From Agromyces seonyuensis (GTDB lineage: Bacteria > Actinomycetota > Actinomycetes > Actinomycetales > Microbacteriaceae), in contig NZ_WSTA01000003.1 in assembly GCF_009789225.1 (NCBI RefSeq), forward strand, positions 1-64,000: a DNA stretch of 64,000 bases. Reading direction: 5' to 3'. A model generated the notes under the pieces. It was not told where the DNA came from, searched no databases, and was given only the letters and a program-made list of their open reading frames with translations. This document shows, in pieces, positions 1 through 63,672 of the stretch (positions are counted from its first letter, which is position 1; each line of letters starts with the position of its first letter). The position numbers and the translations under genes are program-made.

Positions 1-124
1 TCCGCGCTACTCGACCGACGCAGGACTCCGCGCTACTCGACCGACGCAGGACTCCGCGCTACTCGACCGACGCAGGACTCCGCGCTACTCGACCGACGCA
101 GGACTCCGCGCTACTCGACCGACG
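1..124. repeat. Tandem 26-bp array of the palindromic-repeat half unit
   Basis: Four complete 26-bp direct copies start at 1, 27, 53 and 79, and a fifth partial copy runs from 105 to 124. Each contains the CTACTCGACCGACG end of the interspersed palindrome found through the right half of the window. The array touches the window edge, so its true length is unknown. There are no unique spacers between copies. Confidence 0.95.
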
Positions 125-146
125 CGCCTCGAACGGCCGACCGAAT

Positions 147-35516: not shown

Positions 35517-36182
35517 ATGCGCGCGAGCGAGGTCGACGGGCGGGATGCCCGGTGGGAGCGGTCGTCCGCGCGGTACCGGCTGCACGTCTACCGCGGGGCG
35601 GGCGGAGCCCTCACCGAGATCGACTTCGAGGATGCCTCGCTCGAGGACGTGCTCGATTCGGGCGCGGTCTTCGGGCGCGACGGTGCGATCTGGTCGCTCG
35701 CGCTCGTCGTGGATGACTCGGCCGACGGCCGTGGGCTGGTCTGGCTCTCGGGCTGGGACTACCACGGGACCCCCGGCACGCCCGTCGAGCGGCGCGGCCG
35801 GGCGCGGATGCAGGACCGCTACCTGATGGCGGAGTCGACGCAGGGGCGGCCGGTCGTGCTGCCCGACGGACGTCGGGTGATCCGCCTGTTCCCGGATGCC
35901 GGGCACGACCAGCCGCTCTGGGAGAGCTTCGCCGACCGGTATACGCTCACCGGGGCCGATCTCGGGGTGTCCGCCGACCTCGAGGCGCGGCTGCGCGCCT
36001 GGCGCGACGACTGGGAGACGGCGGTCGCCCCGGCCTGGCACGGGGTCGACGACTCGGCTGCGCCGGACGACGCCTGGTACGACCGCGGGTACGCGCTCGC
36101 GACGGAACTCCAGGCTGAACTCGGCGACGGCTTCGAGGTGCGCCCGGACTTCGACCGCCGCAGTCTCCCGCTGGTCGAGTAG
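35517..36182 (+). CDS. Hypothetical protein ending inside a palindromic repeat
   Basis: This 221-residue acidic soluble protein has no family I recognise. It is rich in Trp and Asp (WLSGWDYHGTPG, WRDDWETAVAPAWHG) and has no signal or membrane segment. The start is fixed by a leaderless -10 box. The last codons CTG GTC GAG TAG are the first bases of an interspersed repeat, so the final LVE and the stop come from the repeat. Confidence 0.7.
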   Translation: MRASEVDGRDARWERSSARYRLHVYRGAGGALTEIDFEDASLEDVLDSGAVFGRDGAIWSLALVVDDSADGRGLVWLSGWDYHGTPGTPVERRGRARMQDRYLMAESTQGRPVVLPDGRRVIRLFPDAGHDQPLWESFADRYTLTGADLGVSADLEARLRAWRDDWETAVAPAWHGVDDSAAPDDAWYDRGYALATELQAELGDGFEVRPDFDRRSLPLVE

Positions 36183-36334
36183 CGACGAAGGAGCGTATCG
36201 AGACCCGGCAACGGACCTTCCGGAGCCCGGAGCACACGTCACCCGGTCTCGATACGCTTCGCTACTCGACCAACGGAGGGGGTTGCTTCGCTACTCGACC
36301 AGCGGAGGGGGTTGCTTCGCTACTCGACCAACGG
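36173..36334. repeat. Palindromic-repeat cluster, convergent gap
   Basis: A forward 33-bp unit (36173-36205) is followed by an inverted 27-bp unit (36245-36271) and then two partial inverted copies in a 29-bp direct repeat (to 36334). Forward and inverted units can pair into a long hairpin. The cluster separates two convergent genes and supplies the stop of the left one. Confidence 0.92.
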
Positions 36335-38488: not shown

Positions 38489-38633
38489 GGTCGAGTCGGC
38501 GCGCCAGCGCCGTATCGAGACCCGGCACGGCGCCTCACGCGGTCTCGATACGCTTCGCTACTCGACCGACGAGACCTTCGCTACTCGACCGACGAGACCT
38601 TCGTTACTCGACCAGCGCTACTCGACCGACGGG
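38489..38633. repeat. Palindromic-repeat cluster with short tandem tails
   Basis: A forward unit of the GC-core subtype (38489-38522, GGTCGAGTCGG...) is followed by an inverted 27-bp unit (38541-38567), then repeated CTACTCGACCGACGAGACCTT tails. It fills the gap between two convergent genes, and the GyrI-like gene stops inside it. Confidence 0.92.
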
Positions 38634-41747: not shown

Positions 41748-42286
41748 ACCTCTACCTCCGCCTGCTGCTGCTGCGCCTGAACGCGGAGCGCCGCGGCCGC
41801 CTCGGCGTCTGGGACACCTCCCGCACGCCGTTCCGCGTCGTGCCGACCGACCTCGACCTGCTCGGGCACATGAACAACGGCAAGTACCTGACGATCATGG
41901 ACGTCGCCCGCATGGACCTCATGATCCGCTCGGGCTTCTGGAAGCGGTTGGAGGATGCCGGGTGGTACCCGGTCGTCGCCGGCCAGACGATCGCCTACCG
42001 CAAGTCGCTGCAGCCGTGGCAGCGGTTCGACGTGTACACGCGCATCCTCGGCTTCGACGAGCGCTGGGGCTACCTCGAGCAGACCTTCGTCGTCGGCTCG
42101 ACGGTCTACGCGCAGGCGATCGTGCGCAGCCGGTTCCTGAAGAAGTCGGGCGGCTCGGTCGACCACGACGAGCTCTTCGCCCTCGCGGGCGAGCACCCCG
42201 CGCACCTCGAGCTGCCCGAGTGGCTCGACGAGTGGACCGCGAACGCGGTCATCCCGAAGGAGTACGTCTCCGCGCGGGTCGAGTAG
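41744..42286 (+). CDS. Acyl-CoA thioesterase (4HBT hotdog fold)
   Basis: This 180-residue thioesterase has the hotdog motif DLDLLGHMNNGKYLTIMDVAR, with the Asp and His-Met-Asn of the 4-hydroxybenzoyl-CoA thioesterase type. It starts in an ATGA overlap. The last codons GTC GAG TAG lie inside the first repeat of the 42.3-kb cluster, so the repeat provides the C-terminal VE and stop. Confidence 0.85.
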   Translation: MNLYLRLLLLRLNAERRGRLGVWDTSRTPFRVVPTDLDLLGHMNNGKYLTIMDVARMDLMIRSGFWKRLEDAGWYPVVAGQTIAYRKSLQPWQRFDVYTRILGFDERWGYLEQTFVVGSTVYAQAIVRSRFLKKSGGSVDHDELFALAGEHPAHLELPEWLDEWTANAVIPKEYVSARVE

Positions 42287-42588
42287 CGAAGCGTATCGAG
42301 ACCGTTCGTTGGTCGAGTACACCCACGTCGGTCGAGTAGCGAAGCGTATCGAGACCCCCCTCCCCGCCGATCGAGTAGCGAAGCGTATCGAGACCCCCCG
42401 CCGGTCGAGTAGCGAAGCGTATCGAGACCCGGCTCCGTCGTACGGTCCCCTGGTCGCGATACGCTCCTTCGTCGCTACTCGACCAACGGTCGGGTCACCG
42501 GGTCTCGATACGCTCCTTCGTCGCTACTCGACCAACGGTCGGGTCACCGGGTCTCGATACGCTCCTTCGTCGCTACTCGACCAGCGAG
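42277..42588. repeat. Palindromic-repeat cluster, largest copy number
   Basis: Four forward 26-27-bp units (about 42277, 42330, 42369 and 42403) and one truncated copy at 42311 are followed by three inverted 33-bp units (42452, 42501 and 42550). The last two form a 49-bp direct repeat. It fills the convergent gap between the thioesterase and thiolase genes and could fold into alternative long hairpins. Confidence 0.93.
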
Positions 42589-46184: not shown

Positions 46185-46438
46185 GGTCGAACAGCGCGGA
46201 GCTGCCATCCGTCGGTCGAGTAGCGCGGAGCGGCCATCCGTCGGTCGAGTAGCGCGGAGCGGCCATCCGTCGGTCGAGTAGCGCGGAGCGCGTATCGAGA
46301 CCGGTCGCTGGGTCTCGATACGCTCCTGCGTCGCTACTCGACCGACGAACGGGGTCGCTACTCGACCGACGAACGGGGTCGCTACTCGACCGACGAACGG
46401 GGTCTCGATACGCTCCTGCGTCGCTACTCGACCGACGG
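46185..46438. repeat. Palindromic-repeat cluster with 29-bp and 24-bp tandem expansions
   Basis: Four forward starts at exact 29-bp spacing (46185, 46214, 46243 and 46272) lead into one complete unit. Inverted units follow, with CGCTACTCGACCGACGAACGGGGT repeated at 24-bp spacing three times, then a last full inverted unit to 46438. It lies between convergent pcaR and the Dabb gene, which stops inside it. Confidence 0.93.
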
Positions 46439-50709: not shown

Positions 50710-50954
50710 GGTCGAGCAGCGACGCAGGAGCGTCTCGAGACCCCGCAGGCCGACCCACGAAGGTCTCGATACGGCGCTGGCGCGCCTACTCGACCAACAC
50801 CCCGTCGGTCGAGTAGCGACGAAGGAGCGTCTCGAGACCCCCCACGAAGGTCTCGATACGGCGCTGCGCGCCTACTCGACCGACGCCCCGTCGGTCGAGT
50901 AGCGACGAAGGAGCGTATCGAGACCACGCGGGCCGACCTGCCGAGGTCTCGACC
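50710..50954. repeat. Palindromic-repeat cluster, alternating orientation
   Basis: Units alternate: forward 50710-50742, inverted 50762-50794, forward 50807-50839, inverted 50849-50881, forward 50893-50925 and a partial inverted end at 50945-50954. Forward units have the GCGACGAAGGAGC core and inverted ones the GGCGC core. The whole fills the convergent gap before dctP and could form two or three hairpins. Confidence 0.93.
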
Positions 50955-52660: not shown

Positions 52661-53451
52661 CGGGATGCTCCTTCCCTGCGCGAGTGCGCATCGAAGAACG
52701 CGCCGAGCACGGCGGCGGTCGCGGCCGGGCGCTCGGCGGCCGGTAGGTGGGCGGCATCCTCGATCTCGACGAGCTCGGCGTTCGCGACGCCCGACGCGAT
52801 CTCGCCGGCCTTCTCGACCGGAGCGACCTGGTCGTGCTCGCCCCACACGACGAGCAGCGGCGCCTCGATCCCGCCGAGCTGCTCGCGCACGTCGTACGCG
52901 GCGAGCGCCTCGCACGCGAGGGCGTAGCTCTCATCGTCGGCGTCCTGCAGCACGTGCAGCAGCCGACCGGTCAGCTCGGGACGGTCGGCGACCGACGTCG
53001 GCCCGAACCAGCGCTGCGCCGACCCGCTGATGAGGCTCGACGTGGACTGCGCCCGCACCTGCGCGGCGCGCTCGCGCCAGGATTCGGGGGTGGCGAGGCT
53101 CGCGCCGGACGCGAGGACCGCCGCCGCGTCGACGAGGTCCGGATGCCGGAGCAGCAGCTCGAGGCCGGTCGCGCCGCCGATGGAGATGCCGGCGTAGAAC
53201 GCCTGGCCGCCGAACTCGGCGATCGCCGCCGCAACGGCGTCGGCGAGCTCGCCGATCGTGAAGGAGTCGGTCGTCGCGGGCGCGGCCCCGTGGCCGGGCA
53301 GCTCCCACGCGGTCACGCGGTAGCGGTCGGCCAGGAGCGGCACGACGTCCTCCCAGAGGATCGCCGAGGTGCCGAGCGAAGGCCCGAGCACGAGCAGCGG
53401 CGCGCCGGCGGGGCCGACGGGTTCGGTGAAGCGCAGCACGGGGACGGTCAC
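52657..53451 (-). CDS. pcaD: 3-oxoadipate enol-lactonase
   Basis: This 264-residue alpha/beta hydrolase opens the enol-lactone to beta-ketoadipate. It has GPSLGTS, the nucleophile motif GISIGG, Asp in WGEHDQVAP and His in DAAHLPAAERP. The GTG start overlaps the pcaB stop (GTGA). PcaC and PcaD are separate genes here, not the PcaL fusion seen in many actinobacteria. Confidence 0.92.
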   Translation of the reverse strand: MTVPVLRFTEPVGPAGAPLLVLGPSLGTSAILWEDVVPLLADRYRVTAWELPGHGAAPATTDSFTIGELADAVAAAIAEFGGQAFYAGISIGGATGLELLLRHPDLVDAAAVLASGASLATPESWRERAAQVRAQSTSSLISGSAQRWFGPTSVADRPELTGRLLHVLQDADDESYALACEALAAYDVREQLGGIEAPLLVVWGEHDQVAPVEKAGEIASGVANAELVEIEDAAHLPAAERPAATAAVLGAFFDAHSRREGASR

Positions 53452-55034
53452 GGTTCCTCCAGCGGTTCGGGTTCCAGGATGCCCGATGCGGCGGTGCCGA
53501 CGGCATCGTCGACGAGCGCTCCGGCGAGGCCGGTGTAGCCCGCGGGGTCGGCGAGGGCTGGGTCGAGGCCGCGCGCTTCGAGCACGGCGGCGAGGTCCCG
53601 CTCCGTCGGTCGAGTCGGCGCGCCGGCGCCGTCTCGAGACGCTCCTCCGGCGCCGCGCGACCGGCGGGTCAGGTCGTCGAGCACCTCGCGAGCCGTGTCG
53701 GCGCCGAGCACGAGCGAGAGCCGTTCGGCGAGGATCGCGCCGTGCGTGGCATCCAGGTTGCGGGCGACGGCTGCGTCGTCGACGCGCAGCCCCTCGGCCA
53801 GCCGTCGGCCGTTCGCCGCGGCACCGAGCGCGAGGCGCAGCAGCTCCCGCAGGGTCGGCCACTCGGCGTGCCAGGCGCCGTCGGGGCGCTCGTCGCCCGC
53901 GAGGGCCGCCGCGAGGTGCAGCGTCGACGCGAGGCCGGGGGCGCGCAGCGCGGCGGAGCGCAGCAGCACCGATCCGGCGGGGTTGCGCTTCTGCGGCATC
54001 GCCGACGAGCCGCCGCCCGCGCCTTCGGCGAGCTCGCCGATCTCGGTGCGGCTGAGGGTCGCGACATCCGTGCCGATCGCACCGAGGGCGTCGAGCACGC
54101 CGGTGAGCGCGTCGCCGAGTTCGGTGACGGGCCAGCGGGTCGTGTGCCACGGCGCATCGGGCACGGCGAGGCCGAGTTCGGCGGCGAAGGCGGCGGGCAG
54201 TTCGGCGGCGCCCTCCGGTCCCGCGAGCTCGACGAACGACGCCAGCGTGCCGCCCGCGCCGGCGAGCTGGGCGGGCAGGGCGAAGCGGGCGTCCTCGAGG
54301 CGCGCGGCCGCACGGCGGAGCCCGCGGAGCCGGTTCGCGATCCGCAGGCCCATGGTCATCGGCACGGCGTGCTGGGTCAGCGTTCGCGCCGCGCCCACGG
54401 TGTCGCGGTGGGCCGCGGCGAGCCGCGCGAGCGCCCCCTCGACGGCCCGGAGGTCGTCGAGCACGAGCCCGGCCGCGCGCGCGGCGACGACCATGAGGGC
54501 CGAGTCGAGCACGTCCTGCGAGGTCGCGCCGCGATGCACCCAGCGTCGGCCGTCCTCCGGAACGGCGGCCTTGAGCGCGCCGACGAGCGGGATGACGGGG
54601 TTGCCGCCGGCGACGGCCTCGCGCGCGAGCACGGCGGGGTCGAATCCCGCCGGTCGAGTCGGCGCCCCGGGGTCGATTCCCGCCGGTCGAGTCGGCGCGC
54701 CGGGGTCGATTCCCGCCGGTCGAGTCGGCGCGCCAGGGTCGACTCCCGCCGGTCGAGTCGGCGCGGCAGCGCCGTATCGAGACCCCTGAAGGTCCGCTGC
54801 GGGGTCTCGAGACGCTCCTTCGTCGCTCCTCGACCGGCGGAACCGGGCGAGTCCGTCCTCCACCGCAGCCACCTCATCCGCGGGCGCGAGCCCGATGCGC
54901 TCGTACGAGCGCGCGAGCGCGATCTCGACGGCGACGAGCGCGTCGAGCACGGCCGCATCCGAGACGGCGTCGTCGTGGCCGGCCGTCACGGGCGACAGCA
55001 GGCCGACGTCGATCGGGGCGGGCTCAGAAGGCAA
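53448..55034 (-). CDS. pcaB: 3-carboxy-cis,cis-muconate cycloisomerase with repeat-encoded insertions
   Basis: This 528-residue fumarase/aspartase-superfamily enzyme lactonises 3-carboxymuconate. HRGATSQDVLDS and GSSAMPQKRNP are intact. Relatives are usually about 450 residues. The excess is two insertions made of the interspersed palindrome in frame: about residues 67-130, with four 11-residue copies like GAPTRPAGIDP, and about 456-477 (RSRGAGGASRDGAGAPTRPT). Removing them leaves about 442 residues with family-like junctions (GLARF joined to FDPAVLAREAVAGGNP). TTG 55034, overlapping the pcaG end, is the best start; GTG 54989 would lose conserved GLLSPV. Confidence 0.9.
   Translation of the reverse strand: MPSEPAPIDVGLLSPVTAGHDDAVSDAAVLDALVAVEIALARSYERIGLAPADEVAAVEDGLARFRRSRSDEGASRDPAADLQGSRYGAAAPTRPAGVDPGAPTRPAGIDPGAPTRPAGIDPGAPTRPAGFDPAVLAREAVAGGNPVIPLVGALKAAVPEDGRRWVHRGATSQDVLDSALMVVAARAAGLVLDDLRAVEGALARLAAAHRDTVGAARTLTQHAVPMTMGLRIANRLRGLRRAAARLEDARFALPAQLAGAGGTLASFVELAGPEGAAELPAAFAAELGLAVPDAPWHTTRWPVTELGDALTGVLDALGAIGTDVATLSRTEIGELAEGAGGGSSAMPQKRNPAGSVLLRSAALRAPGLASTLHLAAALAGDERPDGAWHAEWPTLRELLRLALGAAANGRRLAEGLRVDDAAVARNLDATHGAILAERLSLVLGADTAREVLDDLTRRSRGAGGASRDGAGAPTRPTERDLAAVLEARGLDPALADPAGYTGLAGALVDDAVGTAASGILEPEPLEEP
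53604..53667. repeat. Palindromic repeat inside pcaB, C-terminal copy
   Basis: A forward GC-core unit begins GGTCGAGTCGG at 53608 and leads into a degenerate inverted half. It sits in frame in pcaB and encodes about 22 residues between DDLT and RDLAAVLEARG. The TAG of the usual unit is TCG here. Confidence 0.88.
54646..54842. repeat. Palindromic repeat inside pcaB with 33-bp tandem expansion
   Basis: Four copies at exact 33-bp spacing (54648, 54681, 54714 and 54747) each contain CGCCGGTCGAGTCGGCG. They lead into a full unit and an inverted unit ending at 54842. The period is eleven codons, so copy-number change keeps the frame. All units here lack the TAG found in most intergenic copies. Confidence 0.92.
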
Positions 55035-57328: not shown

Positions 57329-57538
57329 GGTCGAGTAGCGACCCACAGCCGGTCGAGTAGCGACCCACCGCCGGTCGAGTAGCGACGAAGGAGCGTATCG
57401 AGACCCCGCCACCCGGTCTCGATACGGCGCTGCGCGCCTACTCGACCAACGCCCGCCGGTCGAGTAGCGACGAAGGAGCGTATCGAGACCCCCGACCCGC
57501 CCAGGTCTCGATACGGCGCTCCGCGCCTACTCGACCGA
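57329..57538. repeat. Palindromic-repeat cluster before pobA
   Basis: Two truncated forward starts (57329 and 57351) precede full alternating units: forward 57373-57405, inverted 57415-57447, forward 57458-57490 and inverted 57504-57536. This is the one cluster between two genes in the same direction, so readthrough from the IclR gene into pobA may be blocked here. The rest of 57319-57634 holds only the pobA leader. Confidence 0.93.
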
Positions 57539-62798: not shown

Positions 62799-63452
62799 AT
62801 GACCGCCGAAGCGCAGGCGCAGACCCGCAATGCGGCGCAGACCCGCCTCGACATCCTCGACATCGCGACCGCGGAGTTCGCCGCGAACGGCCTCGCCGGT
62901 GCGCGCGTCGACGAGATCGCCGCTCGCACGCGCACGACGAAGCGCATGCTCTACTACTACTTCGGCTCGAAGGAAGGGCTGTTCCTGGCCGTCCTCGAGC
63001 GGGCGTACGCGACGATCCGCAGCCTGGAATCGGGGCTCCACGTCGACGATATGGACCCGGTGGACGCGCTCCGCGCCCTCGCCGAGGCGACCTACGACCA
63101 CCACACCACGCACCGCGACTTCATCCGGCTCGTGAGCATCGAGAACATCCACCGCGCCGAGCACCTGCTGCAGTCCGAGACCATCCTCGACCTCAACGCG
63201 ACGGCGATCTCGACGCTCGAGCAGGTCATCTCGCGCGGCGTCGCCGAGGGGCGATTCCGCGACGACGTGGATGCGGTCGAGACCCACGCCATGATCAGCG
63301 CTTTCGCCGTCTTCCACGTGGCGAACCGCGACACGTTCAACGCGATCTTCCGCCGCGACCTGCTCGACCCGGAGCGCCAGGACCACTACCGCCGGCTCAT
63401 CGGCGACATGATCGTCGCCACCCTGACGACGAAGCCGTCGCTGGTCGAGTAG
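62799..63452 (+). CDS. TetR-family regulator ending in a repeat
   Basis: This 217-residue regulator has an HTH (ARVDEIAARTRTTKRMLYYYF, about 34-54) and a TetR C-terminal domain. It lies downstream of quiC-aroE and is a good candidate to sense a shikimate-pathway ligand. The last codons CTG GTC GAG TAG belong to the repeat cluster, so the final LVE is repeat-derived. Confidence 0.83.
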   Translation: MTAEAQAQTRNAAQTRLDILDIATAEFAANGLAGARVDEIAARTRTTKRMLYYYFGSKEGLFLAVLERAYATIRSLESGLHVDDMDPVDALRALAEATYDHHTTHRDFIRLVSIENIHRAEHLLQSETILDLNATAISTLEQVISRGVAEGRFRDDVDAVETHAMISAFAVFHVANRDTFNAIFRRDLLDPERQDHYRRLIGDMIVATLTTKPSLVE

Positions 63453-63672
63453 GGAGCGGAGCGACCGTATCGAGACCCGGCAGGATGCCGCTCCCGGCCC
63501 GGAAAGGGCCGTGCGGGGTCTCGATACGCTCCGCTACTCGACCAACGGGAGCTCCGCTGGTCGAGTAGGGAGCGGAGCGACCGTATCGAGACCCGGCAGG
63601 ATGCCGCTCCCGGCCCGGAAAGGGCCGTGCGGGGTCTCGATACGGTCCGCTACTCGACCGACGGGAGCTCCG
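63443..63672. repeat. Palindromic-repeat cluster, 116-bp tandem duplication
   Basis: A 116-bp block (63441-63556) is repeated at 63557-63672 with only two differences seen. Each block holds a forward unit (GGTCGAGTAGGGAGC...), a 40-bp spacer and an inverted unit. The near identity indicates a recent duplication. It fills the convergent gap between the TetR and aldo/keto reductase genes. Confidence 0.95.

Follow-up and report, generated by a model that had tools for sequence, protein, structure and literature searches.

The window studied here is the whole stretch of 64,000 nucleotides at the start of one contig of the soil actinobacterium Agromyces seonyuensis, whose genus is placed in the Microbacteriaceae in the available part of PMC5217419. 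In it, the gene for the 3-carboxy-cis,cis-muconate cycloisomerase PcaB contains two blocks of a palindromic repeat that is otherwise dispersed between genes. This raises the question of whether the blocks are genuine in-frame additions to a working enzyme, and of what kind of element could have supplied them. The answer that we favor, with a probability of about 0.85, is that a REP-like non-autonomous repeat is present in the Microbacteriaceae and that two tolerated in-frame copies of it are translated within pcaB; as regards translation, enzyme activity, tolerance and the order of events, this account argues from sequence.

The pcaB reading frame and its repeat blocks

The gene and the repeat features within it are as follows:

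53448..55034, minus strand: pcaB, 3-carboxy-cis,cis-muconate cycloisomerase, 528 aa, TTG start
54648..54839, minus strand: N block, 64 in-frame, repeat-encoded residues (66-129), 192 bp, without counterpart in 104 of 104 aligned relatives
54751..54784, plus strand: repeat unit in the N block, a GGTCGAGTCG variant ending CGTATCGAGACC (unit pattern)
54803..54835, minus strand: facing repeat unit in the N block, both arms degenerate (unit pattern)
54635..54765, minus strand: tandem array with a period of 33 bp (11 codons), 4.0 copies, a GGTCGAGTCGGC arm in each (TRF, 95% matches; family D1)
53598..53663, minus strand: C block, 22 in-frame residues (458-479), a degenerate fused unit pair, 66 bp (find_repeats families D1 and D4)

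A single open frame spans 53448-55034 on the minus strand, with 528 codons free of stops and frameshifts, and it overlaps both adjacent genes by a few bases, pcaG at the latter's end and a pcaD-like gene at its start. Next to it lie genes for protocatechuate 3,4-dioxygenase, whose beta and alpha subunits both score above cut-off, and for a PcaD-like enzyme, which falls short of its own; the context is thus a protocatechuate operon, in which PcaB is the enzyme to be expected. Against TIGR02426 (protocat_pcaB) the protein scores 318.5 bits (E 4e-95), which is below the cut-off of 355.75, in a match divided into two stretches; the top-scoring NCBIfam model, nitrosuccinate lyase, is likewise far under its own cut-off, and the Pfam Lyase_1 match exceeds its cut-off. 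All 10 matches to PcaB in this genome were inspected, and the gene in the window is the sole PcaB among them: one other match is long, to a lyase with 29% identity, and the remainder match the repeat peptide over short lengths.

The N block consists of the facing unit pair and most of the 33-bp array, which is overlapped by a second, poorer TRF row with a period of 14. The lengths of both blocks (192 and 66 bp) are divisible by three, as is the tandem period. The initial annotation had placed in-frame repeat blocks of about 64 and about 22 residues inside pcaB: the frame is open through both, reversed-pattern controls argue against chance, the rechecked coordinates give the same lengths, and their subtraction (528 - 64 - 22) leaves the 442 residues that had been put forward as the length without blocks. 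Hence, the blocks are real and their interpretation as in-frame palindromic repeats is supported. TRF periods in the 11 arrays from the other repeat clusters of the window are 22, 23, 24, 26, 29, 29, 34, 42, 49, 86 and 116 bp (one sub-row of 17 is omitted), and only two of these are multiples of three.

A REP-like repeat family in the Microbacteriaceae

The repeat unit comprises GGTCGAGTAG, a variable self-complementary center and CGTATCGAGACC, and is REP-like. Using the pattern GGTCTCGATACG-N(0-20)-TACTCGACC, which matched units of 25-41 nt (41 being the limit of the pattern), we recovered 280 exact units in this genome as against none for the reversed control; similarly, the 10-mer TMTCGAGACC occurs 408 times as against 4 for its reversed control. 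These controls rule out chance palindromes in a sequence of 72% G+C. Exact units are found in 50 of the 199 genomes of the family and in 43 of the 60 Agromyces genomes, within which the count per genome ranges from 0 to 280. Across a sample of the phylum they occur in just four of 396 genomes, three of them being Agromyces, including the present one.

There are 37 distinct centers among the 129 exact units with distinct context, and these form 3.38 nested pairs as against 1.85 when shuffled, with some of the common centers pairing only in part. When units lie within 60 nt of each other, the facing arrangement with GTAG outside is the commonest (29 of 56 adjacent pairs; the other three types number 12, 8 and 7). 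GTAG directly precedes the variable stem, and outside it lie six further fixed bases (GGTCGA). The family is thus a REP in the broad sense, i.e., a 20-40 bp palindrome of high copy number that is mostly intergenic and has a stem with compensating changes. The consensus 33-nt unit is open in five of its six frames and has a stop in one; the peptides that it encodes are small and polar, and are probably disordered.

A search of the window with Rfam at gathering scores yielded no match, which rules out a known RNA family as the identity of the repeat. The Y1_Tnp profile, diagnostic of RAYT-type transposases, likewise has no match in this genome and is found in only one of the 199 family genomes (G011), itself devoid of exact units. 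On this evidence we rejected spread driven by the known transposase type, and a RAYT of that type is unlikely to be the mobilizer.

Two further observations concern the distribution of the pattern. In another genus of the same family (g46), three genomes (G045, G171 and G116) have 619, 359 and 169 exact units, with two of the three exceeding the species of the window. In a different family of the class, genome G468 (C1:1672389-1672587) has two identical 41-nt pattern matches whose center is not clearly self-complementary; they may be a chance occurrence or a distant relative of the repeat.

Repeat clusters avoid genes

Outside pcaB, the window contains the following clusters:

36173..36329: repeat cluster of the pcaB-block family (TRF and pattern)
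38489..38627: cluster outside pcaB, sharing with it the TAG-less GGTCGAGTCGGCGCGCC arm (repeat pattern)
42277..42582: repeat cluster of the pcaB-block family (TRF and pattern)
46214..46433: repeat cluster of the pcaB-block family (TRF and pattern)
50710..50925: repeat cluster of the pcaB-block family (TRF and pattern)
57329..57536: repeat cluster of the pcaB-block family (TRF and pattern)
63443..63659: repeat cluster of the pcaB-block family (TRF and pattern)

No strand is assigned to these clusters. At 63439-63672, a 116-bp segment with a facing repeat pair is present in two copies (98% matches).

From the window and 29 further stretches (L111-L139) we drew 54 clusters and asked how many have coding sequence on both flanks joined by one open frame. 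Just two do so, those in pcaB and in the CcsB gene, whereas among 3000 length-matched random segments 1715 do (binomial P 3e-17); the count includes the window, which was picked for pcaB, and without it becomes one of 53. With a slightly lower threshold and more stretches, three of 65 clusters are in frame (67 distinct clusters, two dropped at edges). A relaxed definition of the repeat yields 22 'in-frame' cases among 114 testable clusters (119 distinct, five at edges), of which 19 were rejected from their translations as chance near-matches in ordinary genes; the three retained, pcaB, CcsB and an ECF-type ATPase, are the same that pass the stricter scan. These scans are samples of the genome, covering the first 100 of the 408 TMTCGAGACC sites and all 64 sites of GGTCGAGTCGGC, the variant without the stop.

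PcaB relatives lack the blocks

Of 110 PcaB-type loci, five with proteins of 420 aa or less were dropped and the remaining 105 were aligned with the query; as one of these is the window's own gene, 104 relatives remain, with some species entered twice. The N block is missing in all 104, and both blocks are missing in the closest, the PcaB of genome G142 from the same genus (L082; 72% identical over the main piece). The N site measures 91 residues here as against 8-55 in the relatives and 27 in the closest, so that the claim of added residues is upheld for this block. At the C site there are 44 residues as against 25 in the closest relative and 20-54 among the relatives (eight rows are cut short there): the net gain of 19 exists relative to the closest sequence only, since the others carry unrelated stretches of 20-54 residues, and the C block is therefore identified by its DNA match rather than its length. 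The next four PcaB-type proteins of the genus (L207-L210) also lack the N block; in all five the C site is free of the repeat. Three of these loci, L207, L210 and L208, show 100% identity over 3.7-4.2 kb with the named Agromyces loci L005, L021 and L042, which identifies the genus in which these genomes are grouped as Agromyces. At a third site, near residue 275, the PcaB proteins of G250 and G164 (L210 and L106) have extra segments of about 22 and 27 residues, which by eye are unrelated to this repeat.

These comparisons bear on the possibility that pcaB is a decaying gene, with the blocks having struck a sequence no longer needed and the frame being open only because a GC-rich repeat rarely supplies stops. 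The five open frames of the consensus unit, the 72% G+C of the window and the sub-threshold score of PcaB with its family model are all compatible with this. However, such decay would have to leave 528 codons without stop or frameshift, two blocks of lengths divisible by three and a 33-bp period; moreover, all alignment-invariant residues are retained, among them those of the H-G-T-QD and GGSSAMPQKRNP regions, and the gene is the only PcaB of the genome, set among both dioxygenase subunit genes and a PcaD-like gene. Relative to L082, the dN/dS (NG86) is 0.32 before the N block (53 codons), 0.36 between the blocks (327 codons) and 0.29 after the C block (39 codons). These values cover the entire divergence from L082; they include pre-insertion time and accordingly indicate a functional gene in the lineage rather than current function. 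We regard decay as unlikely.

Predicted structure and RNA folding

An AlphaFold2 model of PcaB built with 49 sequences has a mean pLDDT of 82.5 and a pTM of 0.84, and the solved structures that match it best are CreD and the Pseudomonas CMLE. The pLDDT is below 50 for residues 77-79, 81-120 and 122-128, amounting to 50 of the 64 residues of the N block, whereas residues 66-73 of this block prolong a helix. The C block is mostly coil in the model, with a mean pLDDT of 56 (461-470) and 69 (471-480). Less confident stretches also occur outside the blocks, at 341-350 (mean 66) and 381-390 (mean 64). The N block is hence predicted to be mostly disordered and the C block a low-confidence coil, with both mapping outside the confident core and the lyase fold being kept; together with the invariant residues, this bears out the initial annotation's view that the fumarase-superfamily signatures survive.

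At the RNA level, the N palindrome of pcaB can still fold (-43.9 kcal/mol), which could be taken to mean that the blocks, while present in the DNA, are removed from the RNA or skipped during translation. In that case a kept frame would be needless; furthermore, the window has no Rfam match, and the folding excess over shuffled sequences is largely lost in pcaB (z of -1.84 and -0.57 for its two copies, compared to -3.47 for the MetH gene copy of G142 and -4.69 for a cluster outside pcaB). Removal or skipping thus appears very unlikely, and translation through both blocks is the reading we retain. We read the weak folding excess of the pcaB copies as a sign of age.

Recurrence in unrelated proteins

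The same repeat is found in frame in several unrelated proteins. Two are encoded by this genome. In CcsB (TIGR03144, above cut-off) it precedes the Cytochrom_C_asm domain, in a linker of 71 residues; the linkers of 11 relatives are unrelated in sequence and measure 63-86 residues, so that there is no gain in length. In the ECF-type ATPase (TIGR04520, above cut-off) it lies between the two ABC domains, and by eye the repeat string is missing in all 11 aligned relatives.

Further cases come from translated PcaB matches in 16 stretches, which gave 19 clusters, two of them at edges, and were subjected to a looser two-flank test. Five of the 17 remaining clusters pass, namely two in MetH, one in LigD and two in IucA/IucC proteins; the four from this genome (L225-L228) fail. 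In the MetH of G142 (L230 1536-1621) and of G254 (L231 1508-1686) the repeat lies between the homocysteine and pterin domains, and in the LigD of G199 (L233 1567-1673) between the phosphoesterase and ligase domains. In the IucA/IucC proteins of G237 and G202 it is upstream of the recognized domain, which makes these cases less certain, and one of them has a weak left flank (0.19). Since the five were found with a translated PcaB query, they favor one reading frame; the CcsB case uses a different frame and was found by the DNA pattern instead. Overall, the repeat is in frame in PcaB, CcsB, the ECF-type ATPase, MetH and LigD, and less surely in IucA/IucC, with the in-frame copies being located in linkers or loops.

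MetH offers a comparison within the genus. A search of 60 genomes gave any match in 33, and 20 linkers were fetched and compared by eye: G142 has two consensus units, G254 a degenerate copy enlarged by a similar 33-bp array, G214 a possible remnant and the other 17 none. The MetH of G206 is 99% identical to that of G142 over the 98 residues preceding the linker, and has an unrelated 34-residue linker as against 53 residues in G142. The two linkers differ by replacement as well as by length, and neither a clean insertion junction nor a target duplication is seen. The availability of filled and empty MetH linkers in one genus (G142 and G254 versus G206) makes the arrival of a copy, the function of the protein, and tolerance versus later use amenable to testing.

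These cases also bear on whether the blocks arose through misjoining of reads from an abundant repeat within pcaB. The genome is a draft of 169 contigs, and the contig begins within a 26-bp array of 4.8 copies bearing one repeat arm (window 1-125), which indicates that the repeat family is probably behind assembly breaks. A misjoin would, however, connect unrelated flanks, while here pcaB sequence in a single frame borders each block on either side; comparable cases are also present in other assemblies, one of them in G142, a genome assembled into four contigs, on a contig of 2.86 Mb. An artefact of this kind is very unlikely, though the assembly may misstate how many copies the 33-bp array has.

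A different possibility is that the blocks were kept because they are useful, with the added segments or hairpins tuning the assembly or expression of PcaB. The presence of two blocks in one gene and the frame-keeping tandem growth in both pcaB and the G254 MetH would fit this, the latter being two cases and only suggestive. On the other side, the genus's five other PcaB-type proteins have neither the N block nor a repeat at the C site, the affected proteins have no common theme, and little folding excess remains in pcaB; we therefore consider usefulness quite unlikely and tolerance the better description.

The favored reading can be put together as follows. A non-autonomous REP-like palindrome would have multiplied in the Microbacteriaceae, strongly so in some lineages including this Agromyces, as units whose arms are fixed and whose variable center is self-complementary, most commonly arranged as facing pairs. 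Selection would mostly purge copies landing in genes, unless the frame was kept and the site was a surface loop or an inter-domain linker. The two copies in pcaB would be tolerated ones of this sort, and a half unit within the N block may later have grown to four 33-bp copies, with a period that keeps the frame. A broader proposal, to which we give distinctly less than even odds, is that the family spreads without a RAYT through another enzyme or a host process, and that its copies repeatedly become translated disordered linkers followed by frame-keeping tandem growth, so that free-living bacteria would keep gaining new protein segments from it.

Relationship to known palindromic repeats

Among the matches listed, the open-licence literature yielded no in-frame or intragenic palindromes from actinobacteria, no description of this repeat family in Microbacterium, Microbacteriaceae or Agromyces, and none when queried with the repeat's own letters; REPIN/RAYT in Actinobacteria likewise gave no match in the open-licence literature. 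The family is thus apparently undescribed, a new REP-like family working like the RPEs in an actinobacterial genus, even as the kind of element is already known. The mycobacterial MIRUs are actinobacterial interspersed repeats closely tied to reading frames; however, they are intergenic direct repeats and are not known as palindromic segments inside enzymes. With the present case, palindromes that invade proteins are seen in a phylum from which our searches turned up no earlier example, and in a genus for which 60 genomes are available; the case also cautions that such extra residues can be genuine sequence rather than annotation errors.

RPEs are described in the available parts of two sources as palindromic, dispersed elements found in frame in unrelated protein genes (PMC10969869, PMC3733652), with a length of about 150 bp in Rickettsia (PMC10969869). 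The present repeat is likewise palindromic, dispersed and in frame in unrelated protein genes, a likeness at the level of description; here, units of about 33 nt come in pairs in a high-GC actinobacterium. The initial annotation had named Rickettsia as the precedent and knew of no actinobacterial case; the latter agrees with our literature searches, whereas the precedent is wider than Rickettsia, as the available part of PMC3733652 reports REPs inside genes of several phyla, where most of them encode 20-30 residues (43-82 in Thauera and in R. conorii, whose copies are CGTC-tagged), and cites a case of an in-frame palindrome in Wolbachia. The paper has no word starting with 'actinobacter'.

Closer likenesses are seen with the GTAG REPs, for which the same part of PMC3733652 describes a GTAG adjoining the stem, stem variants that compensate each other and a preference for dimers with GTAG outside. 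The present repeat has all of these in common with them, along with short hairpins and intragenic copies. It differs in the six further fixed bases outside GTAG, which in the GTAG REPs stands at the terminus, and in its other arm, TATCGAGACC, and, in contrast to the GTAG REPs with their RAYT, 198 of the 199 family genomes here are without a Y1_Tnp match. The CGTC-tagged REPs, found mainly in alphaproteobacteria, are characterized there by intragenic copies and by having no known dedicated transposase (PMC3733652); they share both features with the present repeat and differ from it in their tag.
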